From a virus: a stretch of 55,328 nt of DNA. The stretch covers positions 1 through 55,328 of the IMG/VR virus record IMGVR_UViG_3300011269_000004. One strand, written 5' to 3'. Below are positions 1,580 through 51,042 of this stretch, piece after piece; the first letter of the stretch is position 1, and every line of letters begins with the position of its first letter. The translations under genes were made by a program, and so were the position numbers. A model generated the notes under the pieces. The model saw only the letters and a program-made list of their open reading frames with translations, was not told the DNA's origin and did no database searches.

Positions 1580-1893
1580 ACCGCACGCCTATCAAATCGT
1601 CCAGCAACATCCTCTCAGCGGGATACGATGAGGGCACGCGCACGCTTGAGTTAGAATTCCCATCGCTCGCTGTCTACCAGTATTATCAGGTTCCTCCGTC
1701 AATTTACGCGGCCTTCCAAGCCGCAGGTTCCAAAGGGAAATTTCACGCGCTGTACTTGGCTGGCAAGTACGAGTACAAGTGCGTAGTCCAGCGACCGCAA
1801 GGAGAAAAGAGTCATGGCGAAAGCAAAACCGAAGTCCAGAGCAAGAGTGTCGCACGGCGCATCGCAGCACAAACCAAAAAGTCCATCTCCTAG
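1576..1893 (+). CDS. KTSC domain protein
   Basis: 105 residues from GTG 1576, which overlaps the previous TGA as GTGA. It shows the KTSC-family pattern: SSNILSAGYDEGTRTLELEF, then YQYYQVPPSIYAAF and an A-x-SKGKF segment. The family is a small conserved domain, named for residues near its C-terminal end, seen in phages and bacteria and linked by some annotations to nucleic-acid enzymes; its activity is not defined. The last 80 bases overlap the start of the next gene. Confidence 0.75.
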   Translation: MNRTPIKSSSNILSAGYDEGTRTLELEFPSLAVYQYYQVPPSIYAAFQAAGSKGKFHALYLAGKYEYKCVVQRPQGEKSHGESKTEVQSKSVARRIAAQTKKSIS

Positions 1894-3211
1894 TCACGCG
1901 CTTATCAAGCCTGATGTGCTCTCGATTCCCGAAGCGATCGAGAAGGTTTTGATTCAAGGCGACTTGTCGCCGCTCCAGCCGCAAGAGCGTATCGATTATT
2001 ACAAGCGAGTCTGTTCCTCGCTTGGCTTGAACCCGCTCACGATGCCGTTCTCTTACATCCTGTTCCGCGAGAGCGATGGCGCGCCGGCCAAACTCTCGCT
2101 GTATGCCAACAAATCCTGTACGGAACAGTTGCGCAAGATTCACGGTGTCTCGGTTATCCCTCCGCTACGCCGGAGCCGCAATGAGGACATCGTGACGGTC
2201 GAGGCGGATGTGCGCGACCGTTTTGGACGTACCGACTCCGCAAGTGGAAGCGTGCCGCTATTCAGGTTCAAAGATGCCAAGCGATACGAACTTACCGGCC
2301 GCGACTTGTGCAACGCGGAGATGAAGTGCGAGACGAAAGCCAAGCGGCGCGCAACTCTCTCGATCTGCGGGTTGGCGTTCCTAGACGAGAGCGAACTGGA
2401 CACCATGCAGGTACTGGGTGGCGTTACGCCTGACGGCCGAATCTTTCGCTACGCTGGCGAGGAACCAGTACCCCCATCGCGCCAATTGAACGAGAACGCT
2501 GCGCATGGTCATCCAGAAGGCTCAGAACGCGCAAAGCAGGCCGACGCAGCCATAAAGAGGGTCGAGCCGGCAGATAAGGCTATAGAGGTCGAGAAAACCT
2601 CGCCAGCCGTCCCTAAAGCGCAACCTGTGCCACCCATGGAGTTCAAGGGTAATGTGGAGATTGACTGCACGGTGCCTTGGCCGATAGTCCGCGGCGACCT
2701 GCAGGACATAATCGAGAACCTACAGAAACTCTTTGGCGCAGCGCTCGAGTGGGGACAAGACTCATGGTGGCACATCGCTCCGAAGCAGGTAAGCGAATTT
2801 GTTGACTTGTTGAGCAAGAACGGATTCAAGGTGGATGTCAAGATCAAGACGCCATCCAAGAATTCTGCCGGTCAGAAGTCTGCCATGACATCTCCGCCGG
2901 CAGAAGCTCCTGTCGTCATCAGCGGGACCGTTGAACGCGTTGTACCTGACGTGAAATATGCAGTCATTACGCTTGCCACAAAGGACGGCAAGAAGCCGAG
3001 TTGGAAGTGTTTCGACAAGGACATCTCCGAGATTCTGCGGAAAAACCTTGGCAAGTTGGCCGAAGTCATCCTACAAAGCCGCGTCTCGAAAGGTGTCACG
3101 TACACAAATCTCATTGGCTTGAAGAACGTCGCTGGCCAAGAGTACGAAGATTTGAAAGTTCCAGTCATCGAGCGCAAGGACCAACAAGCTGGAGCCAAAA
3201 CGCTTTTCTGA
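1814..3211 (+). CDS. RecT/Red-beta-like annealase candidate with C-terminal OB-like domain
   Basis: 465 residues. GGAGAA lies about nine bases before the ATG. Residues about 45-200 carry the pattern GDLSPLQPQERIDYYKRVCS, then LGLNPLTMPFSYI and KLSLYANKSCTEQLRK. The GLNPxTxPF segment resembles the GLNPFxKEIY signature of RecT/Red-beta single-strand annealing proteins. After a Pro-rich linker, the C-terminal third (about 365-450, from VVISGTVERVV) alternates hydrophobic strands as an OB-fold would. Expected role: binding single-stranded DNA and annealing it during recombination-dependent replication. The superfamily assignment is moderately sure; the domain fusion is inferred from pattern only. 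Confidence 0.65.
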   Translation: MAKAKPKSRARVSHGASQHKPKSPSPSHALIKPDVLSIPEAIEKVLIQGDLSPLQPQERIDYYKRVCSSLGLNPLTMPFSYILFRESDGAPAKLSLYANKSCTEQLRKIHGVSVIPPLRRSRNEDIVTVEADVRDRFGRTDSASGSVPLFRFKDAKRYELTGRDLCNAEMKCETKAKRRATLSICGLAFLDESELDTMQVLGGVTPDGRIFRYAGEEPVPPSRQLNENAAHGHPEGSERAKQADAAIKRVEPADKAIEVEKTSPAVPKAQPVPPMEFKGNVEIDCTVPWPIVRGDLQDIIENLQKLFGAALEWGQDSWWHIAPKQVSEFVDLLSKNGFKVDVKIKTPSKNSAGQKSAMTSPPAEAPVVISGTVERVVPDVKYAVITLATKDGKKPSWKCFDKDISEILRKNLGKLAEVILQSRVSKGVTYTNLIGLKNVAGQEYEDLKVPVIERKDQQAGAKTLF

Positions 3212-14068: not shown

Positions 14069-14320
14069 TCACGGTTTTGGTGTCGCTACTCCGCCGTTCG
14101 CACCGCGTCTCTCTTCGCCTGTCCATGGAGTGGGATGGGTCTTGAGGTACAAGGCTGCTCCGACACCGCCGCTGATGGCAATGCTCAGTCCTAAATGCTT
14201 CCAGCCACCCGGAGTAGTGACATTGAAGTGCTCGGGGTCTGAAATCATCAAGGTGATGCTGTTAGCAGAGGCCCCGACAAATCCACCGATGACGCCATTC
14301 AACCAAGTTTTCCAGTTCAC
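14069..14320 (-). CDS. Holin candidate
   Basis: 83 residues from GTG 14320, with AAGGAGG well placed. Two hydrophobic segments (about 6-25, GVIGGFVGASANSITLMI, and 43-58, LGLSIAISGGVGAALYL) are joined by a short polar loop containing DPEHFN, and the C-terminus is charged. Size and topology fit a two-helix holin. Its neighbours (spanin-like gene, endolysin on the opposite strand) support a lysis role. Confidence 0.6.
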   Translation of the reverse strand: MNWKTWLNGVIGGFVGASANSITLMISDPEHFNVTTPGGWKHLGLSIAISGGVGAALYLKTHPTPWTGEERRGANGGVATPKP

Positions 14321-14334
14321 ACACGCCTCCTTTT

Positions 14335-17148
14335 TTACGGTCCTGCTTTGATGACCCCTCTCCCTGAGATCGAGCCGACCCCGATCACGTTCCCGATTCC
14401 TGTGCCTGATAGTGCCACAGTTTGCGGATTGTTTGCGGCGTTATCTGAGACAGTGAGAGTCGCTAAAACTGGAAGGAGCGTATGCGGCGTGAAGGTCATG
14501 GTGATGGCGCAATTTAGGCCGGCTGCCAAGGATGCAGGACAGTTGTTTGTCTGAGAAAAATCCGCCGTGCCTACAATACTGATGCCGGTGATGGTCAACA
14601 AACTTGTCCCAGTATTAGTGAGTGTGGCTGTTTGACTAGGGCTGGCAAGCCCGATTGCCGAGTTTCCAAAAGCAATAGTGCCGGGAGACAACGAAACATT
14701 TACTGTCTGCGCCCCTGGATCGGCAATCCTGTTCCTTGAAACAATAAGTTCATCGTACCAAGTGAACGCTTGGGTATAAACCAAGGCCAAATTTCTTGTG
14801 TTCCCGGTGTTAGCGGTTAGGGCGACCGTATTCCCGCTTTGGCTGAAGGTAAAGTCGGTCGTGTTGGGCAGGGACGCGATAGCAAGGTTCGTTACATTGA
14901 AAGTTCCCCCGTCAAGCGTCGTTCCCGTGATCGTTACGCGATCCCCGACGATGAAGCATTCCCCTGATTCGTTGTTCAGGTGCCCCATAGTAGCTGGCCC
15001 CGTGCCCAAGCGAACGGTCACAACTCCAGCCGAACGAGCCAGATTAGCAACAGGGAAATCACCAGTGCAACGTCCTGTTTGAAAGGGCGTGAGCCAAATT
15101 TTCCCGTACTTGTTGGGCGGTGTGCTGGTCCTAACCAGGTCGTAGCCGGTCTGGCACGCTGGTTCGCTTACTTGAGTATTCTGGCAGGTTAGTCCCGCAG
15201 AACCCGGCTGTGGGCTGTAGTCCTGAATCAATACAGAGGGTTGGCCTTCCCGCGCACCCCACATCTGAATTGTGCTGTCATGCTTGTATACGCCATTGTT
15301 TGAATACCAAGTTCCGATCTTGATGTGAACCTGGAACGTCATCCACTCGTTCGGGAAGTATCCAAAGCAAGGAAGGACGGGTTGTCCGAAACTATGCTGG
15401 GTAAATAGACATTGTGGGCTGCGCGGACTGTTTTGCAGGTAGAAGTCTGTTGGCGGGGAGCCGATGGGTTCGTACAGCCCCTCATAGGAACTATTCTTTA
15501 TCCCGCAGCTATGGTACATCTGAGAGAGTTGGTTTTGAGATGAATTCTGAACGATTACCCCAATATCCACGCAGGAATTTATACAAGGAGTGCTGAACGA
15601 AGAACTGCATCCCGACCCGGCGATGTCTCCGCCAGTGATTATTGCTTGTTTCCATCCCCCACCTCCGCCTCCGCCAATACGGTTAAAAGTATCTATGAGC
15701 CCATTAGGGCCGCTGAATCTTTGTCGCCACTGAACATAAAACTCACAAGAAGTAGGGGCAATGGCGCAAGAATCAAATTGAGTCAACAAGTCAGGAGAGA
15801 AATTAGCAAAATAAGACCCAGAGGGGCTCTCACTGGAACTCGCAGGCACGCTAAACCTCACGGAGCCCCCGCCAGATGCAAACACACCATTGTCGATTAC
15901 CGGAGCCGTGTCTCCAGTCGTGACGCCCGTGTTGTTGCCAAATACGCCGGAAATCTCCAACGCCGAATCAAATCCTATGCAACGAACTATCCCAGATTGA
16001 GAGCACCGCGATTGGAAGTCTGTCGTGAGCCTCAGTGTAAAGGCATCTTGCATCCAGTCGTTAACCAAAACAAAAATGTTCGAGGTGGGTGAGTAGCGGA
16101 ATCTTCCGAAAGTTCCATTAGCCTGCGGCACCCCCGGTCCACCGGGATAAGTAACCGTGGTGCAGGCATTCGTATCTGGATTGAACAGCAGTATGCTGTT
16201 CCCGCCTGTCCACCCGACCAGTAGCTTTTGTACTGGATCATAGACAATCGCTTGGTCGCTTCCAGTCTTCAGCGCCCCGCAGGTTGTGACCGATGCGCTG
16301 ATGTCGGTCAGCGTGTAGTTTGGGTCGGCACCGGAAATATCTGCCTTAAGTATTTTGCCTCCGCCAAACAAGAAGAACAGTTTCCTGCCGGGGTCGATGA
16401 CCGCTGTACCACCACAGCCTCCTGGAGTGTTCGGCGAAAGTTGCGTGTAGGTATTCGTGCTTCTCACGTAGCGATAGAGAAAGGCTAAATCGTACAGCAA
16501 GACGGAGTTCGTATTAGGATCGTAATCCGAGGCCTCACAAATGCCGGTAGATGGAGCCGTGCCGACAACTGTCACCGGGTCTTTCCTCACCCACGCAGTT
16601 GTGGGGTTGACGATGTTGGAGAGGTCGAGCGTCCAAGTATCTTGAATGCCGCCTCCGCTGCCGCAGGCGAAGGCTCCCCCGAACACAAACATCTTGTCCT
16701 CGGCGGTGCCCATGTACGAAATTCCACCGTATGTGTGGCGAGAGCTTGGCGTCCCATCTGCATAGGCAGGTGTACAAAGAGGACTTGGGTTGGCGGCGTT
16801 GTTTAGGCGGGTTAAAGTTACCGGATTCGCGCCTAGATTCAGAGAATATACTTCATTTCCGTAATAAGCATTATGCCCGCCACCCCAGACAATCAAGCGA
16901 TTGCGGTTTACGTCGAAAATTCCTCCACTCCAGCTTGCTATAACCGCTGAACAGCCCTCAACAGCGCGCCAAGGCTCCGGGGTTACATTGTCTGACAATA
17001 GATCAATACAGATCGCCGAAGAATTCCCAACTTGCGTGCCGCTGTCAGACAAATGCGTGTTGGGCAGTTGCGTCCAACCGAGAGTCTGGCCACACACCGC
17101 GTTCGCCAGCAAAAGAGCCACGACTACAACGAACAAGCCCTTAGTCAT
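14335..17148 (-). CDS. Secreted-type Kelch/lectin adhesin with choice-of-anchor D domain
   Basis: 937 residues from ATG 17148, with GGAG nearby; a longer frame from 17199 lacks that site. N-terminal signal peptide (LFVVVVALLLANAVCG, then Q). Residues about 30-390 carry Kelch-like repeats (VWGGGHNAYYGNEVYSLNL, MFVFGGAFACGSG, FFLFGGGKILK). The middle contains a concanavalin/polysaccharide-lyase-like stretch with WMTFQVHIKIGTWY. Near the C-terminus SLSPGTIAFGNSAIG and FSQTNNCPASLAAG mark an ASPM/SPD-2/Hydin-type domain typical of Acidobacteriota secreted proteins. Probably a receptor-binding or surface-modifying protein. The signal peptide is unusual for a virion protein. Confidence 0.7.
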   Translation of the reverse strand: MTKGLFVVVVALLLANAVCGQTLGWTQLPNTHLSDSGTQVGNSSAICIDLLSDNVTPEPWRAVEGCSAVIASWSGGIFDVNRNRLIVWGGGHNAYYGNEVYSLNLGANPVTLTRLNNAANPSPLCTPAYADGTPSSRHTYGGISYMGTAEDKMFVFGGAFACGSGGGIQDTWTLDLSNIVNPTTAWVRKDPVTVVGTAPSTGICEASDYDPNTNSVLLYDLAFLYRYVRSTNTYTQLSPNTPGGCGGTAVIDPGRKLFFLFGGGKILKADISGADPNYTLTDISASVTTCGALKTGSDQAIVYDPVQKLLVGWTGGNSILLFNPDTNACTTVTYPGGPGVPQANGTFGRFRYSPTSNIFVLVNDWMQDAFTLRLTTDFQSRCSQSGIVRCIGFDSALEISGVFGNNTGVTTGDTAPVIDNGVFASGGGSVRFSVPASSSESPSGSYFANFSPDLLTQFDSCAIAPTSCEFYVQWRQRFSGPNGLIDTFNRIGGGGGGGWKQAIITGGDIAGSGCSSSFSTPCINSCVDIGVIVQNSSQNQLSQMYHSCGIKNSSYEGLYEPIGSPPTDFYLQNSPRSPQCLFTQHSFGQPVLPCFGYFPNEWMTFQVHIKIGTWYSNNGVYKHDSTIQMWGAREGQPSVLIQDYSPQPGSAGLTCQNTQVSEPACQTGYDLVRTSTPPNKYGKIWLTPFQTGRCTGDFPVANLARSAGVVTVRLGTGPATMGHLNNESGECFIVGDRVTITGTTLDGGTFNVTNLAIASLPNTTDFTFSQSGNTVALTANTGNTRNLALVYTQAFTWYDELIVSRNRIADPGAQTVNVSLSPGTIAFGNSAIGLASPSQTATLTNTGTSLLTITGISIVGTADFSQTNNCPASLAAGLNCAITMTFTPHTLLPVLATLTVSDNAANNPQTVALSGTGIGNVIGVGSISGRGVIKAGP

Positions 17149-35587: not shown

Positions 35588-36700
35588 TTAGCTCAAGCCA
35601 GTGATCGAAGTCGCTGTGCGCGGGTTGACGTTCGAGAGTTGCATCACGACTACAACTCTGCTCACCACAACTTCTTGGTTCGAGGCCATCAGCCAAGGCC
35701 GAATGATGAAGTACCCGCGATTGTGATAATTCATCCAGAAGTATGTCGAGTTCCACATTAGGCCAGTGCCCGCCGTGTTGTACTGATCCGCGAGCACCGT
35801 AGCGTTGTTGAACCGGAAGTGGTAGCGGATGGAGGTCTGCACCGGCTCCTTGTCGCTCATGTTGTCCACGGAGCGGATGATGGAGGTCGAGGTCGAACTT
35901 ACGGAAGTGAACTGTGTTTTGAACTTTCCGTAGTCGAAGTTGTTCAGGATAAGCGTGTCCGGCTCGTCGTAGCCGAATACGATGCCTTGATAAGCGGTTT
36001 CCGCGTTCAGGACCGTCAGAGCTCCGCCTCCGTTGGCCGTTGCCGCCGTGGGATTCCATGCCGTAGTGGTCGAGCGGTTGATGCCCGCGATGGTGTTATT
36101 CTGCGTGGCTATCCACGCGATGATGTTGTCGATGTCGATGGAAGTGTTCTGCGGCGCGGTTCCGTACACGGCGCGCGCTAATTTGGGCAACAAAGACGCT
36201 GCGCAAGTCTGCATCTTGCCCTTCACGACGTCGATTGCGCTCGCTCCGCCGGAACCGAGAATGATGTCCAGCGTGGGAATCGCGCAAACCTGATAGTACG
36301 CGCGCCACACTTGGTTCGCGGGCTGGATGGAGTCGATAACCGCAGTGTTGAGCACCTGGTCGCCCCAGAACGCGCCACCAGTCGGCTCCTCTTGCGTCAA
36401 GAGCGGAAAAACCAACTCGGCACCCGTGACATGCTTGCCGCTGCGCTGCAACGCCCAGTACGTCGGCGAGGGCTTGATTACGATGTCCGACATGAAGGGC
36501 GCGATTTTCTTCTGGGAAATTGCATCTAGGGTATTTACCATGAGGGCACTAGGTGATTGAATACCTGTGCCAGTGACTCCAGCCGCCCACTCAACGGGAC
36601 CGATATACTCGTAGGAATCACGATGGATGATTTCCATCGTCTCTATGTCGAGTACGACGCGAGTTGAAATACGTCGGGCTTTCAAGATTTCTTCTTGCAT
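35588..36700 (-). CDS. Major capsid protein (HK97-fold type)
   Basis: 370 residues from ATG 36700 (GAGGGAG upstream). Pattern fits a phage capsid protein: a short N-arm, YYQVCAIPTLDIILG, a conserved DNIIAWIATQNNTIAGINRS segment, then a P-domain-like part (AYQGIVFGYDEPDTLILNNF, FRFNNATVLADQYNTAGTGL) and a C-terminal strand (WLMASNQEVVVSRVVVVMQL). Scaffold-like genes lie just upstream. Residues 236-320 are strikingly similar to the Tat-signal protein at 47015-47572. Confidence 0.82.
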   Translation of the reverse strand: MQEEILKARRISTRVVLDIETMEIIHRDSYEYIGPVEWAAGVTGTGIQSPSALMVNTLDAISQKKIAPFMSDIVIKPSPTYWALQRSGKHVTGAELVFPLLTQEEPTGGAFWGDQVLNTAVIDSIQPANQVWRAYYQVCAIPTLDIILGSGGASAIDVVKGKMQTCAASLLPKLARAVYGTAPQNTSIDIDNIIAWIATQNNTIAGINRSTTTAWNPTAATANGGGALTVLNAETAYQGIVFGYDEPDTLILNNFDYGKFKTQFTSVSSTSTSIIRSVDNMSDKEPVQTSIRYHFRFNNATVLADQYNTAGTGLMWNSTYFWMNYHNRGYFIIRPWLMASNQEVVVSRVVVVMQLSNVNPRTATSITGLS

Positions 36701-36711
36701 CTTCGTCTCCC

Positions 36712-37224
36712 TCAACAGGCGATTCCTATTACATCGAACTGAACTTTCTCGTGCGGACATTTTCCGTCTGGACTGTGTGCCTTGCCTAGATTGCAGTTAA
36801 AGCAGTGCGCAGCGAAATCTTCTTTCGGGTAGCCGTTCTTCCTCAGCCAGAGGTAGAGGGCCGTACCGCCTCGCGGAATGTGGGCATACAAGTCGGGACG
36901 GTTTTTGTACCCGTAGACGTGCTCAACCGTGAGGAAGCCCTTTTCGCTTTCCCCGCAGCAAGAGCACTTGCCGCCGTAGGCATCAATTACTTCGTCTTTC
37001 AGTGCTACGCGGTAATCAACGTGATAAGCGAGTGTTTTAGCGTGGTCTTTCCAGTACTGCCTCTGGTTGTACTGACGTATTTTTTCTGGATGAGTTTTCG
37101 CATAATTGCGACGGTACTCATTGAATTCAGCGCGGAACTTATTCCTATGGCGGAGTACCTTCTGTACGCCCGCAGCTTTTCGCTGTTCTTCGGTCAGATA
37201 CTTTCTTGGTCGTCCTCTGCCCAT
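36712..37224 (-). CDS. HNH endonuclease inside the capsid operon
   Basis: 170 residues. Basic N-terminus (RGRPRKYLTEEQRKAAGVQ) with an AT-hook-like GRGRPRK, then CSCCGESEKGFLTVEHVYGY, and AAHCFNCNLGKAHSPDGKCP: a zinc-containing HNH of the kind inserted as free-standing homing genes. It sits between the coiled-coil gene and the major capsid gene, in the same direction. It would nick or cut DNA lacking the insertion. Confidence 0.85.
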   Translation of the reverse strand: MGRGRPRKYLTEEQRKAAGVQKVLRHRNKFRAEFNEYRRNYAKTHPEKIRQYNQRQYWKDHAKTLAYHVDYRVALKDEVIDAYGGKCSCCGESEKGFLTVEHVYGYKNRPDLYAHIPRGGTALYLWLRKNGYPKEDFAAHCFNCNLGKAHSPDGKCPHEKVQFDVIGIAC

Positions 37225-40340: not shown

Positions 40341-40807
40341 GAATTGGCTCTCCCGGCTGGAATCGAACCAACATCAGCCTCCGTCGAGGCCCGCGACCCC
40401 TCAGTTAGAACTGAGTGCTCTGCCACTGAGCTACGGGAGAATGTCGTTTCGTTGCAGGCGCATTTCCACGGCCTTAAAACTTTCAGCACACGCGACTGAT
40501 TCTTTTCAATCGGGTAGGTAGCAATCGCTGTTAAATGTTCTCCGTTAATAATCCGGTCTGTGTCCCGGTACTCGACGAACATCACACATTCGTTCGTCAG
40601 GTCTTGACATAATTTTTCAAGTTCCAGCTTTCCCGCAACGGAAAGAATAATGATGTCTTTGTCCTGCACATCCACTTGCGGCAAGAGGCGCTGGAGTTTT
40701 GCTACAACGTGAACAGCGTGAGAAGCGATTCGTCCTGAAGTCATGCACAGTTTGCGGTCGGACAAGTCAAGATTACGCAACACAACGACATAAATACGTT
40801 CAGTCAT
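40337..40807 (-). CDS. Pth2-like (peptidyl-tRNA hydrolase II family) protein
   Basis: 156 residues, ATGA overlap with the portal gene. The first 110 residues follow the PTH2 layout: VVVLRNLDLSDRKLCMTSGR then IASHAVHVVAKL (nucleotide-site helix), DKDIIILSVAGKLELEKLCQ, and VEYRDTDRIINGEHLTAIAT near the end. In cells PTH2 enzymes free tRNA from peptidyl-tRNA; whether the catalytic residues are intact I cannot verify. From residue about 123 the tail is translated from the tRNA-like gene on the same strand (SSVAEHSVLTEGS, GSIPAGR), so the domain proper ends before it. Confidence 0.65.
   Translation of the reverse strand: MTERIYVVVLRNLDLSDRKLCMTSGRIASHAVHVVAKLQRLLPQVDVQDKDIIILSVAGKLELEKLCQDLTNECVMFVEYRDTDRIINGEHLTAIATYPIEKNQSRVLKVLRPWKCACNETTFSRSSVAEHSVLTEGSRASTEADVGSIPAGRANS
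40345..40440 (-). tRNA. Aberrant tRNA-like gene, anticodon uncertain
   Basis: Seven-bp acceptor stem (TCTCCCG/CGGGAGA), D-arm GCTC/GAGC, T-arm GTTGG/CCAGC with TTCGATT loop, discriminator G and encoded CCA are all normal. The anticodon stem CTCAG/CTGAG closes a 6-base loop (TTCTAA) instead of 7. By the normal U33-N-N-N-A37-A38 layout the anticodon would be TCT (Arg) with one base missing; allowing an 8-base loop gives CTA (amber). The variable region is 27 bases and contains a GCCTC/GAGGC stem. It may be non-decoding. It overlaps the 3' end of the Pth2-like gene on the same strand. Confidence 0.75.
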
Positions 40808-42537
40808 CGCGGCCTCTTGAGTTTTCCCATCGCCGCCAATTCCTTCTCGCGCAAATTTTCCTCGGCGAGTTCTTCCGCTTGCGGCAAACCCAAATTTTCC
40901 AACAGATACTTGGTGGGGATGAGTCCTGCTTTACCAAGCCCGCTTACGATACTCCGCAGCGCCGCCGCGCTCATCACTTGCAGAGAACCTTCATCCAGTT
41001 CGATGTCGTAGTCGCTGATGTCGCCCACTGGTTTCCACTGCGAGAATTGCGCTTCGCCGCGCTCGATGCGCATCAGGCGGTCGCTCAAGTTGCGATACCG
41101 CGCGTCCACGTAGAAAATGATTTGCGCGAGCCGCTGTAGTTTCTCGGCAAGCATTCTCCCGCGCAAGCGGGTCATCGGCTGCGACTGCCAAAGCGTTGCG
41201 TCGAATAGTTCTGGAGAAATGTTCCCCTGCCCAGGCTGGCCTTGCCGCGCTGCGGTATAGCCCTGCAACTCCTTCTGCAGCGCGAGCAGCGACGCTGGAA
41301 CGTTCAGCATGTGCTGCGGAAGGGGAGGGATAGGAACCACAGTCGGCGGGTCGGAGCCAGCGTTAATCATCAGCACTTCGCCAGGGAGCCAGCCAATGCC
41401 TTGCGGGTCGAGGCCGGTATTGTTCTTGATGATGATTACGCCGTTGTTCGTCCTGACGATGTTCTCGAATACCTGCGTGTACAAGCGCTCGCTCAAGTTC
41501 TGTAAAGTGCGTGTCAGTTTTACCGGAGGCGGTCCCCAAAAGTTCGTGATCGTGGGCATCGCGGGAATACGAATCAGTGGGAAGGTTCCCAAATCATCGT
41601 CGGGAAGTTGCGGGCACCAATTGTTGCCGTCCGCGAGAATCACGTCCTCGCATTCCGTTATCCAGCGCCCATCAGGATATTTGTACTGGAAGCGGGGATG
41701 CACCAGTTCTTGAATCTCGCTGGCTGTGCCCGCATAGTCTTTTACCTTCTCGCGCGTGTTGTCGAACAGGTAGCAGTGGCGCAGACATACGCGGTTGTCG
41801 CGGAAGATTTTACGATCCTGTGTGCCTTGCTGCGATAGCGGGCTGGCTTCGGGAAACTCCAGCGTGCCGGGTACATTCGCGCCAGGGTCGGCATCAGCCA
41901 TGTACATATGCGGCCGGACAAAGCGTCCGCGTTCAGGAAAGCGCCGGTAAATTTCGTCCAAATAAACCCAATCCTCAAAGATTAGCCATGACCAATCGCT
42001 GTCGGATTTCGCGTAAGGGTCGGGGAAAACTGTTTTCGGTTCTCGGCTTTGCAGCCAGGTAACGCCTTTGCCTTTGCGTGCCGTAGGATTGAAGCCCACT
42101 TGCAGGAAACCAAGATTCGACAGCATGGCCCACACCATTGTTTCAAGGATGCGGTTGTTGAACGAGCCTTGCCGCCAAGCGGACTGGAAATACTTCTCGC
42201 GGTCCTTGTCGCGGTCGCTGCCTTTTGTGATGTACACCTTTGGCGAGGAATCGGTGATGTCGGTTGCTTCGTTCAGGACTAGGGTTTGCAACTGAGGAAT
42301 CTGAACACGAGGACGGAAGGAAGGAAAGTTCGGCTGGTCATCTTCTAGGTTGTAAAATGCCTCGATGTCCTCGAAGTAGTTCTTGCCTAACGCTTTGTCG
42401 CGCTCGTACTGGCTGATTCTTTGCAGTTCGTCGATTTGCCGCGCTACGCGCTTGTCGTCGGAGAGATGGTCTAGCAACGATTTAGTTTTTGAGCCTGTCG
42501 AGACTGCCTCATACCCAACGAACAGAGGATAGCCCAT
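40804..42537 (-). CDS. Portal protein
   Basis: 577 residues. Portal pattern: VQIPQLQTLVLNEATDITDS, FQSAWRQGSFNNRILETMVW, KTVFPDPYAKSDSDWSWLIF, IRIPAMPTITNFWGPPPVKL, a wing region, and GDISDYDIELDEGSLQVMSA near the end. It forms the ring through which DNA enters and leaves the head. Upstream of the scaffold and downstream of the terminase, as usual. Its ATG follows directly on the TAG of the upstream gene in the same frame. Confidence 0.85.
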   Translation of the reverse strand: MGYPLFVGYEAVSTGSKTKSLLDHLSDDKRVARQIDELQRISQYERDKALGKNYFEDIEAFYNLEDDQPNFPSFRPRVQIPQLQTLVLNEATDITDSSPKVYITKGSDRDKDREKYFQSAWRQGSFNNRILETMVWAMLSNLGFLQVGFNPTARKGKGVTWLQSREPKTVFPDPYAKSDSDWSWLIFEDWVYLDEIYRRFPERGRFVRPHMYMADADPGANVPGTLEFPEASPLSQQGTQDRKIFRDNRVCLRHCYLFDNTREKVKDYAGTASEIQELVHPRFQYKYPDGRWITECEDVILADGNNWCPQLPDDDLGTFPLIRIPAMPTITNFWGPPPVKLTRTLQNLSERLYTQVFENIVRTNNGVIIIKNNTGLDPQGIGWLPGEVLMINAGSDPPTVVPIPPLPQHMLNVPASLLALQKELQGYTAARQGQPGQGNISPELFDATLWQSQPMTRLRGRMLAEKLQRLAQIIFYVDARYRNLSDRLMRIERGEAQFSQWKPVGDISDYDIELDEGSLQVMSAAALRSIVSGLGKAGLIPTKYLLENLGLPQAEELAEENLREKELAAMGKLKRPR

Positions 42538-43242: not shown

Positions 43243-45003
43243 TCAAATCCTTCCTAATACCGAGTGCTGTTTCATTCGGTTGGGCCGCATGATGAATGCC
43301 AAATCTCGTTTCAGCGCGTCGTGCAAGGTGGCTTGAGGCTTGAGCGCCGCTTCTATCGAGGCCTGACGCGATTCTTTGGTCTCCAGATAGTTCGCCTTGT
43401 AGTTGGCGATGTTCGGCGGAGGATACTGCGCGCAGGCGATGACAGCAAGCAAAGCGGCAAACAAAATATCATCATGGCCGTGCTCGATCTCCCATCGCCC
43501 GCCGATTCCCATCGTGGCCATGTCCATCTGCCGGAGGAGTTCTTCGTCCTTGACTTCCAGCCCGCCGGGAACATTCTTCATGCCCTCGCGGAGTTTACCA
43601 CGGAAAGTGGAATAGAGCAGATCGCGGGTGCGCGCGGTTGTTTCCCATCCGAGAGAATGCCGCTTGCCTTTTCCGTAGGTGGCATCATCCTTGCCGCGCC
43701 ACACGTAGAGGTTCGGGTAGTAGTAAGTGTCGCGCATCAACTTCTGCGCCCACAGGCCGAGGTTCCCGGTCAACTCGATGTTGACCATCGCGTTGTTGTA
43801 CCAGCGCCCCACTTTATCGAGGTCGTCGGCAATCACTTCAGGATTAACCCAGTCAGAGAAGCGCGCAACAAACTTTCCGGTGGTGCCGTTGAGCACGTAG
43901 TAGGCTGCGAAGTCTCCGGTGGCGAGTCCAGTATCCGCTTCGAGTCCTCGCGCGCAGTCCGCGCCGACGTAATACCAGCACTTGTCGCGCGGCTTTTCCC
44001 AAACGAGCAGTTTGCCCTTGCTGTTCTCGACCAGCATCGGCTTGTCGCCGGAGCGTTCAAGATGTCCTGTGACGATAGGAGCCTTGATGGTCTTTCGCGC
44101 GTACTGCAATTCTTGCGCGTTGAAAGCGGGGTCGCCGGTAGCGACGAAGGCTACAGTAGGAGTCCACGGGTATTCCTGCGAGAATTTCGCTTCGCTTCCG
44201 TCGCACTCGCCTTCAAGCACCAAGCGCATCCACGCTATCTGACCGCGCGTGGCGTTGAATGGCTTCTTCATCAACTCGCGTTCTAGGTCCGATGCTGGCG
44301 CGTCCGAGGCTTCCGATGCCAACCGTTTACAGGCGGGGTCATCTAGCCACGAGAGGAAGATAGGCGTATATCCGTTCCAGTCTTTTCCCTTCTTGTTAGC
44401 TCGGTTCCAGAATTCGTAGAATGTTTGACCGATACCCACACGCCCGAAGGCAGTAGACTCAAGAGCGATGATAGTATCCGGCGCCTTCGAGACTGCGGGT
44501 AAAATTCCGAGGAATGAATCTGACCCAGGATATTGAGCAGCTTCCGACAAATGTAACGCTGTAAGGGTGAGTCCTCGCCCTCCGCCAACGGAGCCGGCGG
44601 TCGCAATATCAAGTCGAGAGTCTCCGTCTTGATGATGAAAGATAAGGTCACGTGTACGAACTTCGCAGCATTCGGCTTTGATGTTGAGAGCTTCTCCGAG
44701 GTCGCGTGGGACACGGAACAATCCCTTCTCTGATACTTCTTTCAGGTGCGCCACGATTTCCGCGTGCGCTTGTACACGAGCGAGACAGTGGCAAAACAAA
44801 AGCGCGTCCATGAACGATGACATGCCTACCCTACGTGCTTTCAAAATCAGGACGCGGATCCATTTGCTTAATTCGTAGGCTTGTTTAATAGCGTCAAACG
44901 CTTTAACTTGATTAGGATTTAAAATAAAAGGCACAGAAACATTCAAGTCTCTGTCTTTCACTGGCAGTTTAGCTAATAGCCTGCGCGCTCGGTCAAGATT
45001 CAT
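43243..45003 (-). CDS. terL: Terminase large subunit
   Basis: 586 residues. ATPase: a KARRVGMSS Walker-A variant at about 55-63 and an LHLSEAA Walker-B/coupling segment near 150. Nuclease: YYVGADCARGLEADTG (Asp near 349), ELTGNLGLW, and HDDILFAALLA near the C-terminus as metal ligands. It pumps DNA into the procapsid through the portal and cuts concatemers. The start is overlapped by 11 bases by the GIY-YIG gene. The packaging type cannot be told from sequence alone. Confidence 0.9.
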   Translation of the reverse strand: MNLDRARRLLAKLPVKDRDLNVSVPFILNPNQVKAFDAIKQAYELSKWIRVLILKARRVGMSSFMDALLFCHCLARVQAHAEIVAHLKEVSEKGLFRVPRDLGEALNIKAECCEVRTRDLIFHHQDGDSRLDIATAGSVGGGRGLTLTALHLSEAAQYPGSDSFLGILPAVSKAPDTIIALESTAFGRVGIGQTFYEFWNRANKKGKDWNGYTPIFLSWLDDPACKRLASEASDAPASDLERELMKKPFNATRGQIAWMRLVLEGECDGSEAKFSQEYPWTPTVAFVATGDPAFNAQELQYARKTIKAPIVTGHLERSGDKPMLVENSKGKLLVWEKPRDKCWYYVGADCARGLEADTGLATGDFAAYYVLNGTTGKFVARFSDWVNPEVIADDLDKVGRWYNNAMVNIELTGNLGLWAQKLMRDTYYYPNLYVWRGKDDATYGKGKRHSLGWETTARTRDLLYSTFRGKLREGMKNVPGGLEVKDEELLRQMDMATMGIGGRWEIEHGHDDILFAALLAVIACAQYPPPNIANYKANYLETKESRQASIEAALKPQATLHDALKRDLAFIMRPNRMKQHSVLGRI

Positions 45004-45733
45004 TGGCGCGTCTCTTCCCCCAAGACTTGCGTGATGCCTGCGCGGCGAGTTCTCTCTGTTCAGGTTTCGCCCAACGACGCAGTTGCGCCTGCCGCTTGCG
45101 CTCTAATGTTTCTGGATTATCTTTCATTCCTGTACGCGATGGGTTTCCTATTCGCATTGCGCTGAGTTTAGCGCAAGTTTCTGGAGACATTTTCTGGCCG
45201 CGATTCCATGCAACCCTTCCTCTGTTGACTTTAAGCGCCTTTTCATAAGCGTGCGGAGGAGGCTTTATTCCATTTCGTTTCAATCCTTCACTAATTGCCT
45301 TCCGCGCTTTTTCTGAGAACGGGCCGCGTGGTCCGGTTTTTATTCCTTTACGGGCCACACTAAGGGCAATGCGCTGGCTTTCTGGCATTCGAATCCCACG
45401 CCTGCACTTTCCCCAACCATCTATGCCGCCTTCTGAAGTATTTGTTAGTGGCACTCCGCTCTGTCGGAAGAAATTAATCCACCACTTTTCGTAGGTTCCC
45501 CAAGCAGAGAGAAAAACCCATTCAAGAACTGACAATCGAGGTTTCTTGCATTGGTCGTGCAATCGACGTAGCCAACGACATACGTGGGTGTTATATCCGT
45601 TGGATTTCTTACAGATAGAATCTTTCAGATGAGTTCGATAGCGTCTGCGCAAATCTGAGGTCTTTCCTACGTAGCGACACACACCAGTATCAGGATCGCA
45701 GAGCGCGTAGATAAACACGCGGCATGGTATCAT
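44993..45733 (-). CDS. GIY-YIG homing endonuclease with NUMOD3-like repeats
   Basis: 246 residues. N-terminal nuclease: VFIYALCDPDTGVCRYVGKT then SDLRRRYRTHLK (GIY-YIG core, with Arg and Tyr in the next helix). The C-terminal half has the spaced KGxKTGPRGPFSEKARKAIS, NRGQKMSPETCAKLSAM and NPETLERKRQAQLRRW segments, which are NUMOD3-type DNA-binding motifs. Homing enzymes of this type cut near their own insertion point. It overlaps the start of the terminase gene and the stop of the gene upstream. Confidence 0.88.
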   Translation of the reverse strand: MIPCRVFIYALCDPDTGVCRYVGKTSDLRRRYRTHLKDSICKKSNGYNTHVCRWLRRLHDQCKKPRLSVLEWVFLSAWGTYEKWWINFFRQSGVPLTNTSEGGIDGWGKCRRGIRMPESQRIALSVARKGIKTGPRGPFSEKARKAISEGLKRNGIKPPPHAYEKALKVNRGRVAWNRGQKMSPETCAKLSAMRIGNPSRTGMKDNPETLERKRQAQLRRWAKPEQRELAAQASRKSWGKRRANES

Positions 45734-46341: not shown

Positions 46342-46507
46342 TTTCCTTCTCCTTCTGTCCAGCGTGATAGTTCTTCCAGAACAAAGTACCACGGCACGAA
46401 CAGGAAAAATTCTCGGCAGTCTTTACGTCCTTGTCGAACAGTTCTCCAACCTTGACCATTGGCTGATTGCAGTGCGGACATATTGGCTGTGTTTCTGGAA
46501 GGCTCAC
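46328..46507 (-). CDS. Small zinc-ribbon protein
   Basis: 59 residues from GTG 46507, which overlaps the previous stop (GTGA). MSLPETQPICPHCNQPMVKV, then SCSCRGTLFWKNYHAG: two Cys pairs of a zinc ribbon. Overlaps the next start by 14 bases. Confidence 0.65.
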   Translation of the reverse strand: MSLPETQPICPHCNQPMVKVGELFDKDVKTAENFSCSCRGTLFWKNYHAGQKEKENART

Positions 46508-46755
46508 TGTTTTCGTCCGCTAGTCATCGCGGCCATCGCTTGCTGCTCCATCTGATCCTGCGCCACGCGCTGCGCGAAGGCCATAGATTCCGCGTTGGCT
46601 TGCTCGTTCTTCAGTTTGCGCAACGCCTGCTCCAGCATGTTGATGGCGTAGTCCATGCCCGGAGTGCGCGCGAGGTCGATGGTCATCTTCATGCTCACAG
46701 GGTCGATGACCGTGAGCACTAGCGAGGCTCGCGGCCTGCTGTTCGGAGCGTCCAT
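46504..46755 (-). CDS. Small helical hypothetical protein
   Basis: 83 residues from ATG 46755 (TAATG overlap). Begins with a beta segment (RASLVLTVIDPVSMKMTID) and continues as a helix rich in Gln and Ala. Function unknown. Confidence 0.6.
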   Translation of the reverse strand: MDAPNSRPRASLVLTVIDPVSMKMTIDLARTPGMDYAINMLEQALRKLKNEQANAESMAFAQRVAQDQMEQQAMAAMTSGRKQ

Positions 46756-47015
46756 TACACCCACCCTCTCTTCGGCGGAAGGAAGCGCACCGCTTGCCGC
46801 GCAAGACGTTGCTCCCTGTCGGTCATCTCGCGGCGCCGCTTCAAGATATTCTGCTGGCGCGCCTGCGCCTTGATCTTGGAGCGCGTCCAGACGTGAACGG
46901 ATTGACAAGTGCGGCAGAACAGCGTGTAGGATTTACCGTCTCGATTCTCCGAGAGCACGATGTCGCTGCGCTCGCAGGTACCCTCAAGAAAATTCCTGCA
47001 CTTGGGAATTTCCAT
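46755..47015 (-). CDS. Small zinc-finger protein
   Basis: 86 residues (TAATG overlaps at both ends). PKCRNFLEGTCERSDIVLSE and YTLFCRTCQSVHVWTRSKI give the Cys spacing of a zinc ribbon; the C-terminus is a basic helix. This type, with a CxxCxxxHVWxR motif, recurs in phages. Confidence 0.7.
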   Translation of the reverse strand: MEIPKCRNFLEGTCERSDIVLSENRDGKSYTLFCRTCQSVHVWTRSKIKAQARQQNILKRRREMTDREQRLARQAVRFLPPKRGWV

Positions 47016-47572
47016 TACGCCGCCTTCGCAAAATACTCTTGCGGTAGAGATTTGCGAATAGGGATGCCATACTCGTCAATTTCGTTTACGTTGAAGATGC
47101 CGAAGTAATTAGGATTCGGCCCTAACTTCACAGTCGCCGTACCGGGCAATAAATAATCCCCGTAGAAGTATCCATCTAAGTGAGGATTCTCCACATGGTA
47201 TGTATCGGCTTTGCGGAGCGAATTTGCTTGCAGCCAAGTTCCTGCCGGAAGGTTTTTGTCATAGGTGACGGCAGCACCCTCGAATCTTCGACAGACGTAA
47301 GAGGTATCGCCTTCAGATTCTACAAGGAAAACGTTAGGAAACAGTTTGCAGAACTGCGCGAATAGGTCGGGAGCCATCGCAATCAGGTCCGGCTCCTCAC
47401 GACCGAATACACATTGCTGGTATGCATTTTCAAGCATGGCGAATGTCAGCGGATTGTTTGGTGCGACGGGGGTCGCGGGCAGTACCGCCTCAACGAGAAC
47501 TTTGTGAGCAACGGCGATGACAACTCCAGCCGTAGCCAACTTCTTGAAAAAGTCTCGGCGTGAAAGACTCAT
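47015..47572 (-). CDS. Tat-signal protein resembling the capsid P-domain
   Basis: 185 residues from ATG 47572 (GGAG seven bases upstream, ATGA overlap). The N-terminus SLSRRDFFKKLATAGVVIAV has the twin-arginine SRRxFxK motif, a moderate hydrophobic core and a site near ATPVA. The mature part is similar to residues 236-320 of the phage's own capsid protein: AYQxxVFGxxEPD here at 50-62 against 236-248, then RF at 96 (296), AGT at 110 (310) and NS at 117 (317). It should be exported folded through the Tat system. Function unknown; it is not a full capsid protein. Confidence 0.7.
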   Translation of the reverse strand: MSLSRRDFFKKLATAGVVIAVAHKVLVEAVLPATPVAPNNPLTFAMLENAYQQCVFGREEPDLIAMAPDLFAQFCKLFPNVFLVESEGDTSYVCRRFEGAAVTYDKNLPAGTWLQANSLRKADTYHVENPHLDGYFYGDYLLPGTATVKLGPNPNYFGIFNVNEIDEYGIPIRKSLPQEYFAKAA

Positions 47573-47754
47573 GCCCTCTCCGAGAACGCTTGGCATCCGC
47601 ACAGCAAGCACGGACCTTCAGGATGCGAGGTGGCTCCGTGTCCGCAGGCGCATTGCGTGTCGCGGTCTACACGCGTGCGCCCGCTCAACAAATGTTCCGG
47701 GTCAGGAAGAGAGTCCGGTGGCCGTTCACGCCGCGCTGAGGGATTCTTCGGCAA
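47569..47754 (-). CDS. Small Cys/His-rich protein
   Basis: 61 residues from TTG 47754. Pro/Arg-rich N-terminus, then CACGHGATSHPEGPCLLCGC, a compact zinc site. Overlaps the next gene by ATGA and the previous one by 29 bases, so the start could be later. Confidence 0.55.
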   Translation of the reverse strand: MPKNPSARRERPPDSLPDPEHLLSGRTRVDRDTQCACGHGATSHPEGPCLLCGCQAFSERA

Positions 47755-48248: not shown

Positions 48249-48446
48249 ATGGCTGGATTGCAGAGGAAAATCAGAATCAAGAAGTTCGTTGATCACTGGA
48301 CTGTTCAGTGGCCGTTGCTCAACTTGCCAGATAAAGTCTTGGAAGCGCACTATTCGACGTTCGAGAATGCTGCGCACGCAGCGCTACACGGATTCCCTGA
48401 AGTATTCGGGACAAACGCATGGATGAAACGCTCAACGAACAGGTAG
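48249..48446 (+). CDS. Hypothetical protein
   Basis: 65 residues; an upstream TTG at 48246 is an alternative start. Contains KKFVDHWTVQWPLL and FENAAHAALHGFPE. Ends with TAG. Unknown function. Confidence 0.55.
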   Translation: MAGLQRKIRIKKFVDHWTVQWPLLNLPDKVLEAHYSTFENAAHAALHGFPEVFGTNAWMKRSTNR

Positions 48447-48592
48447 AGGAAGCGTTGCGCCGGCGCATGAGCGAGATCGGGCGCAAGGGCGGACGCGCCA
48501 AGAGCGAGCGCAAGAAGCGCGCCTCGCGCGAGACGCTCAAGAAGGCCAACGCGGTACGCTTGAAGCGCAGGGTGCCAGATGGTAACAATTGA
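48419..48592 (+). CDS. Small basic KGG-type protein
   Basis: 57 residues from ATG 48419. MDETLNEQVEEALRRR then EIGRKGGRAKSERKK and a basic helix. The GRKGGRAKS motif is shared by several families of tiny phage and plasmid DNA-associated proteins. Overlaps both neighbours. Confidence 0.6.
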   Translation: MDETLNEQVEEALRRRMSEIGRKGGRAKSERKKRASRETLKKANAVRLKRRVPDGNN

Positions 48593-49251: not shown

Positions 49252-49647
49252 ATGAAGATAGCGAAACTAATTGTGCTCATCCTAGTTCTTGTCACGCAGG
49301 TATTTTTACTCTGGCGAATTCACGCACGACACAAGATACTTGAGCAACTACAAAAGCCCGTACCATTGAGCAGCCTTACTGCACCCTCCGACAATTGGAC
49401 TTTGGATTTCCCTCTAATTACTGGAGTTGGCTCGCTGCAATTCGCGGCTGGCGTAGAACCAGTTTGCGAGATTCTCAGCGGTCAAACCGAGTTGAGAATT
49501 CTCGGCAACCACACATGGAAAGACTGTGCGCGCGAGTTGCGCAAGGCATACCAGTCCACTGAGGAGCAGATTCTTAAAGAGCGCGCTGCACATCGGCAGG
49601 GATGTCTTGAACCGAATGCGAACGTAGAAACACAAGGTAGGATATGA
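49252..49647 (+). CDS. Membrane-anchored hypothetical protein
   Basis: 131 residues from ATG 49252 (GGAGGAAGTG upstream). One N-terminal membrane helix (LIVLILVLVTQVFLLW), then a soluble domain with two Cys. Longer in-frame starts upstream lie inside the previous gene and are not supported. ATGA overlap with the next gene. Confidence 0.6.
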   Translation: MKIAKLIVLILVLVTQVFLLWRIHARHKILEQLQKPVPLSSLTAPSDNWTLDFPLITGVGSLQFAAGVEPVCEILSGQTELRILGNHTWKDCARELRKAYQSTEEQILKERAAHRQGCLEPNANVETQGRI

Positions 49648-49808
49648 ACGCCGACGTAATCGAAGCGAACTTGGAAGGGGTGCTGCCCGCGTTCCTCTAC
49701 GGCGCGACATTGCTGGAGATGGGCTTCAAGTTGACTAGCGAAGGCGAGTGGATTGTGCGGTCTGAATTGTATTGCTTGACGCCCCACGGAGTTTGGAAAG
49801 TTGAGTGA
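49644..49808 (+). CDS. Small hypothetical protein
   Basis: 54 residues from ATG 49644 (ATGA), with LEGVLPAFLYGATLLEMGFK. The stop overlaps the GTG of the methyltransferase remnant. Confidence 0.55.
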   Translation: MNADVIEANLEGVLPAFLYGATLLEMGFKLTSEGEWIVRSELYCLTPHGVWKVE

Positions 49809-50256: not shown

Positions 50257-50786
50257 CGTCTTTTCTTCTTCGGCGCAGCCGAGGGCGCCGGTTTCTGTTC
50301 CTTATTTAACACCTGGCGCTTGAACGAGCATAACCCGCATTGGCAATCCACGTCGTGCGAGTCAGACGCCATTCCGCTTAGAGGTCGTTGGCTTTTAATA
50401 GAAACGGGAGTTTGTTTGTCATCCACGACGTCAGGAGTGAAATCCGGGAGCGGATCGGTTCCCTTGTAGGCTCCGGCGGAGGCAACAGGGACAGGAGCAA
50501 TTCGTCGAGACGGACCAGCGCCCCGTCCAGCCACAGGAACGTCTGGTACCCCAGCGCCGTCTTGATGGTCACGATTCTCATGCCCAATTCCTTCAACCTT
50601 AATAAACTCTCGTGGATGCTCTATGTGGATCGGAGGAACAGCAACATATACCGTCCTGCCGCTCGCTACATCGTCTAATTCTCGCCGCATCCACTCCGCT
50701 AACTTCAACCCCACTTTGTCCGCAGATTTTTGCCACCGGTCCAACTGTTCCGTGTCCAGCCTTAATTTGTATGTCCTCGGCGGCAT
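50253..50786 (-). CDS. RHH-type DNA-binding protein with long disordered tail
   Basis: 177 residues from ATG 50786. MPPRTYKLRLDTEQLDRWQK and ADKVGLKLAEWMRRELDDVA fit a ribbon-helix-helix: one strand, then two helices, as in Arc/CopG repressors. The rest is Pro-rich with a Cys cluster (VDCQCGLCSF) and a basic end. Four GTACCCAC repeats lie directly upstream, so autoregulation is likely. Confidence 0.6.
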   Translation of the reverse strand: MPPRTYKLRLDTEQLDRWQKSADKVGLKLAEWMRRELDDVASGRTVYVAVPPIHIEHPREFIKVEGIGHENRDHQDGAGVPDVPVAGRGAGPSRRIAPVPVASAGAYKGTDPLPDFTPDVVDDKQTPVSIKSQRPLSGMASDSHDVDCQCGLCSFKRQVLNKEQKPAPSAAPKKKRR

Positions 50787-50787
50787 C

Positions 50788-50850
50788 GTGGGTACGCTGC
50801 GTGGGTACAATCTCATGCCGTGGGTACAGTGTCAACCGGTTTGTGGGTAC
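50788..50850 (-). promoter_or_regulatory. Operator-like array of four GTGGGTAC repeats around a promoter
   Basis: GTGGGTAC occurs at 50788, 50801, 50820 and 50843 (GTACCCAC on the minus strand). On the minus strand a perfect TTGACA -35 box lies between the last two copies, with copies flanking the expected -10. The first box begins two bases from the RHH start codon. The arrangement is that of a repressor-controlled promoter, probably autoregulated. Confidence 0.6.
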
Positions 50851-51042
50851 ACGCCACACCACCCCAAAATCCTAAACTTCATCGTAAGCAGCTTAGGAAG
50901 AAAATACTACCCGCAGAAATAAAGGGCCGCGTATTCGCAGCCAGAGAGACGGACTCGCGTTGTCGACGCAGGCTCGAAAAAAGATGATGGGGTGCCCTTG
51001 CGATTGTGTTGGCCTGATTGCTTGCCGATCGCGCGCCAGTGT

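Follow-up and report, generated by a model that had tools for sequence, protein, structure and literature searches.

A stand-alone capsid A domain behind a Tat-type signal in a phage genome

Main

Phage capsid proteins are usually regarded as cytoplasmic structural proteins. Reuse of the capsid fold is seen in encapsulins and in the T4 vertex protein gp24, which retain the complete fold and form shells. Proteins exported by the Tat system are folded, and a Tat passenger is expected to fold in the cytoplasm. Two parts of capsid biology concern us here: capsid A domains sit at the centres of capsomers and affect maturation in phage P22 (PMC4113789), and CapRel, a capsid-sensing immunity protein, touches the β8–β9 loop of the A domain and the P domain of its capsid trigger (PMC9712102). 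Among small exported phage proteins, Ltp is a superinfection-exclusion lipoprotein of Streptococcus thermophilus phages (PMC3952083).

The DNA analysed here is a virus record of 55,328 nucleotides (IMGVR_UViG_3300011269_000004; the window). It encodes P0001, a 185-residue protein in which a Tat-type N-terminus precedes a region related to the capsid protein. With moderate confidence, we regard P0001 as a domesticated stand-alone capsid A domain that would be carried by Tat to the envelope and would serve there as an accessory protein.

The P0001 gene and its operon

The P0001 coding sequence (47015–47572, minus strand) was assigned by translation, by matches to the TIGR01409 and NF033394 models and by its homologue P0003. 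It runs from an ATG at 47572 to a TAA stop at 47017–47015, the codons without the stop occupying 47018–47572, and its product begins MSLSRRDFFKKLATAGVVIAVAHKVLVEAVLP. Directly 5′ of the ATG is CGGAGAGGGC, and a ribosome-binding-site-like stretch, TCGGAGAGGGC, precedes the ATG at 47573–47582 (−). The start overlaps the TGA of a small upstream ORF (ATGA; 61 aa, CxC..CxxC type, 47569–47754, −), and the stop overlaps the ATG of a cysteine-rich downstream gene (TAATG; 86 aa, 46755–47015, −) that is conserved near the terminase in relatives. Judged from the sequence, the genes are packed as in a phage operon with coupled translation, which leads toward the genes for the terminase large subunit (43243–45003, −; PHROG 2, E 3.5e-19), the portal (40804–42537, −) and the capsid. 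In scans for promoters and terminators, fewer sites turned up in the real sequence than in shuffled ones.

An earlier note, made from the sequence, had described a capsid-like domain with a Tat signal encoded apart from the capsid gene, and the gene is indeed separate and upstream of the terminase. The protein divides into three parts. The Tat signal comprises residues 1–29 (47486–47572, −; the end is an estimate), is recognized by TIGR01409 and has no capsid similarity. The HK97-type A-domain part comprises residues 42–136 (47165–47449, −), as supported by BLASTP, hidden Markov models, NF033394, the structural model and Foldseek. The C-terminal tail (residues 137–185; 47018–47164, −) has no relatives, is not common to P0003 and has no confident predicted structure.

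Two other genes of the window adjoin the capsid and terminase genes: an HNH/endonuclease VII-like gene beside the capsid gene (36712–37224, −), related copies of which recur at various places in relatives, and a GIY-YIG gene just before the terminase (44993–45733). In two phages an intron or intein-like insertion of about 1 kb interrupts the large terminase gene, at almost the same residue (280/281) in both (L018, from phage G002, 10108–12864; L075, 1332–3983).

Homology to the capsid protein

Sequence comparison shows homology between residues 42–136 of P0001 and P0002, the major capsid protein of the same phage (370 aa; 35588–36700, −), which was identified by NF033394, by a match to PHROG 9953 (major head protein) and by HK97-fold matches. 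The corresponding stretch of P0002 is residues 227–331 (35708–36022, −), as given by sequence alignment and profile–profile comparison. The motifs AYQxxVFGxxEPD, RF, AxV, AGT and NS, which had been reported to fall in the same order in both proteins, do so: AYQQCVFGREEPD (P0001 50–62) pairs with AYQGIVFGYDEPD (P0002 236–248), followed by RF (96/296), AxV (100/300), AGT (110/310) and NS (117/317), with the claimed offset of exactly 200 residues from RF onward. BLASTP aligns the two proteins with E = 2e-7. The shared part amounts to about 105 of 370 residues, less than the half of the capsid protein that had been suggested.

P0001 without its signal scored 87 against the capsid protein, compared with a mean of 30 and a maximum of 54 for shuffled sequences (z 12.5; 0/2000), whereas the signal part alone is unlike the capsid (z 0.4). 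This test thus splits P0001 into two modules, a capsid-unrelated signal and a capsid-related domain. The curated podovirus capsid model NF033394 matches residues 44–112 of P0001 (E = 0.0018; 17.5 bits, profile positions 183–253 of 311) and also matches P0003 (18.9 bits) and P0002 (86.5 bits). Its curated cut-off is 80 bits, and when a match above that cut-off and near full length is taken as evidence of a whole capsid protein, P0002 is a member and P0001 and P0003 are not.

Profile methods extend the relationship to other short proteins described below. In a search with the capsid profile, P0001 was found with E = 6.7e-7, P0003 with 5.9e-10 and the short proteins of phages G049, G035 and G032 with 1.8e-5, 4.2e-5 and 0.075, respectively. 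Conversely, a profile built from these five proteins matches the capsids of these phages with E values of 1e-7 to 1e-12, and profile–profile comparison gave E = 1.5e-11 and 1e-14, the former for the homology of P0001 residues 42–136 to the capsid protein.

The shared piece as an A domain

In the AlphaFold2 model of P0001, a helix (44–55), a strand (63–66), a second helix (68–77) and three strands (94–97, 100–104 and 113–116) follow one another; in that of P0002, the matching elements are a helix (230–239), a strand (249–252), a helix (254–268) and three strands (295–297, 300–304 and 313–316). The two predicted models have the same order of elements, in agreement with the resemblance first seen in the motifs. 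In the capsid model this block is preceded by a long helix (158–178), taken by us for the spine helix, and followed by the last long strands (344–367), taken for strands of the P domain. In the HK97 fold, this interval holds the A (axial) domain as one contiguous stretch. The shared piece is therefore the A domain, and not the P domain that the earlier note had named. The N-arm, the E-loop, the spine helix and the last P-domain strands are absent from P0001 in both alignment and models.

A Foldseek search of the PDB with the P0001 model returned HK97-fold shells, identified by their descriptions, as its first 31 matches; these include encapsulins, HK97, NF5, PhiTE, lambda and T4 (best E 0.019, probability 0.99). 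Mean pLDDT of the model is 61, with about 80–90 in much of 41–77 and 91–120 and values below 50 from residue 124. As capsid rows were present in its alignment, the model counts as supporting evidence and not as proof. A PDB sequence search with P0001 gave mostly antibody heavy chains (E >= 0.14), which we judged to be chance matches. No family in PHROGs, Pfam or PADLOC was found for P0001 or P0003.

The Tat signal and a second phage

The Tat signal of P0001 consists of the twin-arginine motif SRRDFFKK already reported at its N-terminus, an h-region and then K24. The curated TIGR01409 model (NCBIfam) accepts it, with 18.7 bits over residues 3–22 (47507–47566) against a cut-off of 16.7 bits. When 36 records of phages from this capsid family were scanned with the model in six frames, only four places rose above the cut-off. 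Two of them are the genes for P0001 and P0003, each the single such place in its record (the 55-kb window record and that of phage G020). By chance, with residues shuffled, 0.005 ORFs per window would be expected to carry an RR motif near the start followed by a hydrophobic stretch; the regular expression behind this figure was composed after the motif had been seen and agrees with the published consensus.

P0003 is encoded on IMG/VR contig 3300027824_000235 (L047/L125/G020). It has 152 residues (MSISRREFFKRAATAAAVVAIAPKILSEPFLP..LEEAYQSCVYGYDEPDLILM..FNGAAVTY..GTMMEINS), is 44% identical to P0001 over its length (phmmer E 1.4e-24) and matches NF033394 with E 6.9e-4. This nearest homologue begins at the same methionine as P0001 and has its own Tat signal (SRREFFKR; TIGR01409 19.3 bits), with 19/32 residues of the signal region identical. 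A separate, normal capsid gene lies beside the P0003 gene in G020. Differences between the P0001 and P0003 genes at codon positions 1/2/3 number 10/7/19 in the signal and 35/26/51 in the A domain, as expected for selected coding sequence. These two are the only independent Tat-bearing lone A-domain proteins known; since a distantly related phage has the same arrangement, the combination looks like real reuse of a capsid part and no accident.

We consider it very improbable that P0001 is a broken duplicate of the capsid gene whose frame happens to start with an RR motif. Such decay would fit the tail without relatives and the lack of the gene at the corresponding position in the nearest relatives, but the intact signal-and-domain homologue in a distant phage largely refutes it. 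The third-position bias, the operon overlaps, the rarity of a chance RR motif and the lone A domains near the terminase in several other phages weigh against it as well.

A charged residue after the h-region is a Tat-type, Sec-avoiding feature. K24 is common to P0001 and P0003, and this conservation fits Tat rather than Sec. By eye, a possible signal-peptidase site (VEA before V30) can be seen in P0001 and none is obvious in P0003; a lipobox cysteine after the signal is missing, as P0001 has no cysteine before C54 and P0003 none within residues 1–50. The hydrophobic stretch has a KD19 value of 1.82 in P0001 and 1.39 in P0003.

An uncleaved N-terminus might instead place the A domain at the inner membrane as an assembly or packaging factor that recruits capsid, terminase or another phage protein. 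The KD19 value of P0001, the lack of a clear cleavage site in P0003 and the position of the gene on the same strand as the terminase, portal and capsid genes, in the series that leads to them, would suit such a factor. We nevertheless find it improbable, as a Tat or Sec signal would put the domain across the membrane from the assembling capsid. Also against it are the modest KD19 value of P0003, the location of the P0003 gene on the strand opposite to the late genes of G020, and the accessory nature of the gene, which is absent in close relatives with the same kind of capsid.

Phages of this group do appear to use Tat-type signals, because two further candidates were found. In G015 (L041/L153), a different, cysteine-rich and zinc-ribbon-like Tat-signal protein, MNRRNFLSRLGIGTVATVTSAIVPAS.., is encoded at 1847–2278 (+) and ends about 140 bp upstream of the large terminase gene. 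In G004 (L024, ~51.2 kb), a 198-residue protein encoded at 14210–14803 (+) has an RR motif and, after it, a lipobox-like MSACG, and is a candidate Tat-exported phage lipoprotein.

Lone A domains near the terminase

Relatives of the capsid were gathered from IMG/VR by alignment (65 loci) and then scanned. Direct scans with P0001 found only a twin contig in IMG/VR, nothing in GTDB genomes and nothing in INPHARED at E <= 1; at E <= 10, INPHARED gave three short unconvincing matches. The twin contig (3300011271_000105) has 2 differences from the window over 21,594 positions and, being near-identical, provides no independent evidence.

A profile search of whole contigs revealed short proteins with the same motif and without a Tat signal in G032 (61656–61994, 113 aa), G035 (50637–50888, 84 aa) and G049 (46428–46649, 74 aa), and more weakly in G046 and G013. 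At least three further phages, and probably five, therefore have Tat-less lone A-domain proteins. In 7/7 phages the lone A-domain gene, which may be on either strand, lies upstream of the large terminase at a distance of about 2–6 kb, an estimate that for G032, G035 and G046 assumes circularly permuted contigs. The corresponding position holds no gene of this kind in G002, G003 and G004, three of the closest capsid relatives, or in the more distant L028 and L029, and we therefore regard the P0001 gene as an accessory gene. A gut-phage match to the G032 protein (E 4) was traced to a periplasmic binding protein and discarded.

In a tree of A domains, P0001, P0003 and G049 group together (91/92 support), apart from their own capsids and on long branches; the tree has 99 columns, its finer branching is not settled and long-branch effects are possible. 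P0001 also scores higher against the capsids of other phages than against its own capsid. We rejected the idea of a recent copy of the phage's own capsid gene on account of these scores and the grouping with P0003. From the comparisons, P0001 looks like an old, fast-evolving paralogue.

Gene neighbourhoods show further recurrences. In G020 (L125) and G049 (L122), the lone A domain is part of a small cassette 2–3 kb upstream of the terminase, together with a protein of 59–62 aa (..GKT..DG..YLV..GI..VE) and a basic MT[IV]TEAERQ.. protein. On the plus strand of the window, 49644–49805 encodes a homologue of the former and 48419–48589 a protein resembling the latter. Two very diverged lone A-domain candidates follow the terminase directly, ahead of the portal gene, in L073 (1846–2112, +) and L075 (4113–4361, +).

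Apart from P0003, all five relatives lack the Tat signal; export is thus not common to the group as a whole, and the function that lone A domains share may be cytoplasmic. The main alternative to our reading, in our view rather unlikely, is that they act there as capsid mimics, binding their own or a competing capsid protein or a capsid-sensing host immunity protein of the CapRel kind. They would then tune assembly, poison that of a rival or serve as decoys, and the N-terminus of P0001 and P0003 would be a secondary addition. The Tat-less proteins upstream of the terminase speak for such mimicry, as do the control of maturation by P22 A domains at capsomer centres (PMC4113789) and the contact of CapRel with the A-domain β8–β9 loop and P domain of its trigger (PMC9712102). 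On the other hand, the signal is complete and conserved in both Tat-bearing members, which is unexpected for a cytoplasmic protein.

Discussion

For P0001 itself we prefer a role in the envelope. Since Tat takes proteins that are already folded, for which a compact α/β A domain would be a plausible cargo, the protein probably works within the inner membrane or beyond it. A typical Tat signal fronts a stand-alone HK97-fold A domain; once folded, this domain would most likely pass the Tat translocase and then work outside the cytoplasm, either as a free protein or anchored in the inner membrane through a signal that is not cleaved. In the envelope it may serve as a moron-like phage accessory protein, the capsid domain offering a preformed module for interactions. 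The sequence shows the homology to the A domain and the Tat-type N-terminus, both conserved in a second phage, as well as the operon packing and the descent from an older paralogue; we infer the export itself, where the mature protein resides, when it is expressed and what its task is. For the task, interference with a second infection ranks first, weakly and as a guess, by analogy with Ltp (PMC3952083). We found no link from P0001 to any envelope partner.

Lone A domains turn up near the terminase in several phages, which points to a general function. We tentatively propose that stand-alone HK97 A domains form a recurring, undescribed terminase-proximal class, one branch of which has become a Tat-exported envelope protein and which possibly reaches to gp06 of the archaeal Haloferax tailed virus 1 (HFTV1). 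HFTV1 gp06 (L151, 2843–3073, +) has 76 residues and is encoded between terminase and portal. It resembles P0001 in structure (TMt 0.61) and has a stretch, GFEPDRIVVPGDEW, resembling EPDLIAMAPDLF; it differs in belonging to an archaeal virus, and in having no Tat signal, and its sequence support is weak (hhalign probability 2.2). No further relatives of gp06 were found in the phage collection, and we keep its link to the lone A domains as a lead. Several other uncharacterized phage proteins of 76–100 aa match the A-domain model likewise.

Among known proteins, the closest to P0001 are the HK97-fold podovirus capsids (NF033394, PHROG 9953), a capsid family to which Myxococcus phage Mx8 p48 is distantly related. 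Residues 42–136 of P0001 have the helix–strand–helix–three-strand order of their A domain and the motifs AYxxxxxGxxEPD, F.xA.V, GT and N; unlike them, P0001 lacks the N-arm, E-loop, spine helix and final P-domain strands, has a Tat signal and is encoded by a separate gene upstream of the terminase. With Tat substrates it shares the RR motif, a moderate h-region, a charged residue thereafter and a passenger expected to fold in the cytoplasm; it differs in that this passenger is a capsid domain without a known cofactor and that export is predicted only. Ltp is comparable as a small exported phage protein, an analogy of role only: P0001 has no lipobox and no sequence relation to Ltp was seen. A literature word search, within the limits of such a search, found no account of an exported capsid domain, and P0001 looks like an exapted HK97-fold part, an undescribed reuse of a capsid piece. 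If our reading is true, a capsid domain is at work outside the host cytoplasm. Encapsulins, the best PDB matches of P0001, and gp24 reuse the capsid fold likewise but as a whole, whereas P0001 is a single domain; placed behind a signal for the export of folded proteins, such a domain would add a new exaptation of the HK97 fold to those seen in encapsulins and vertex proteins.
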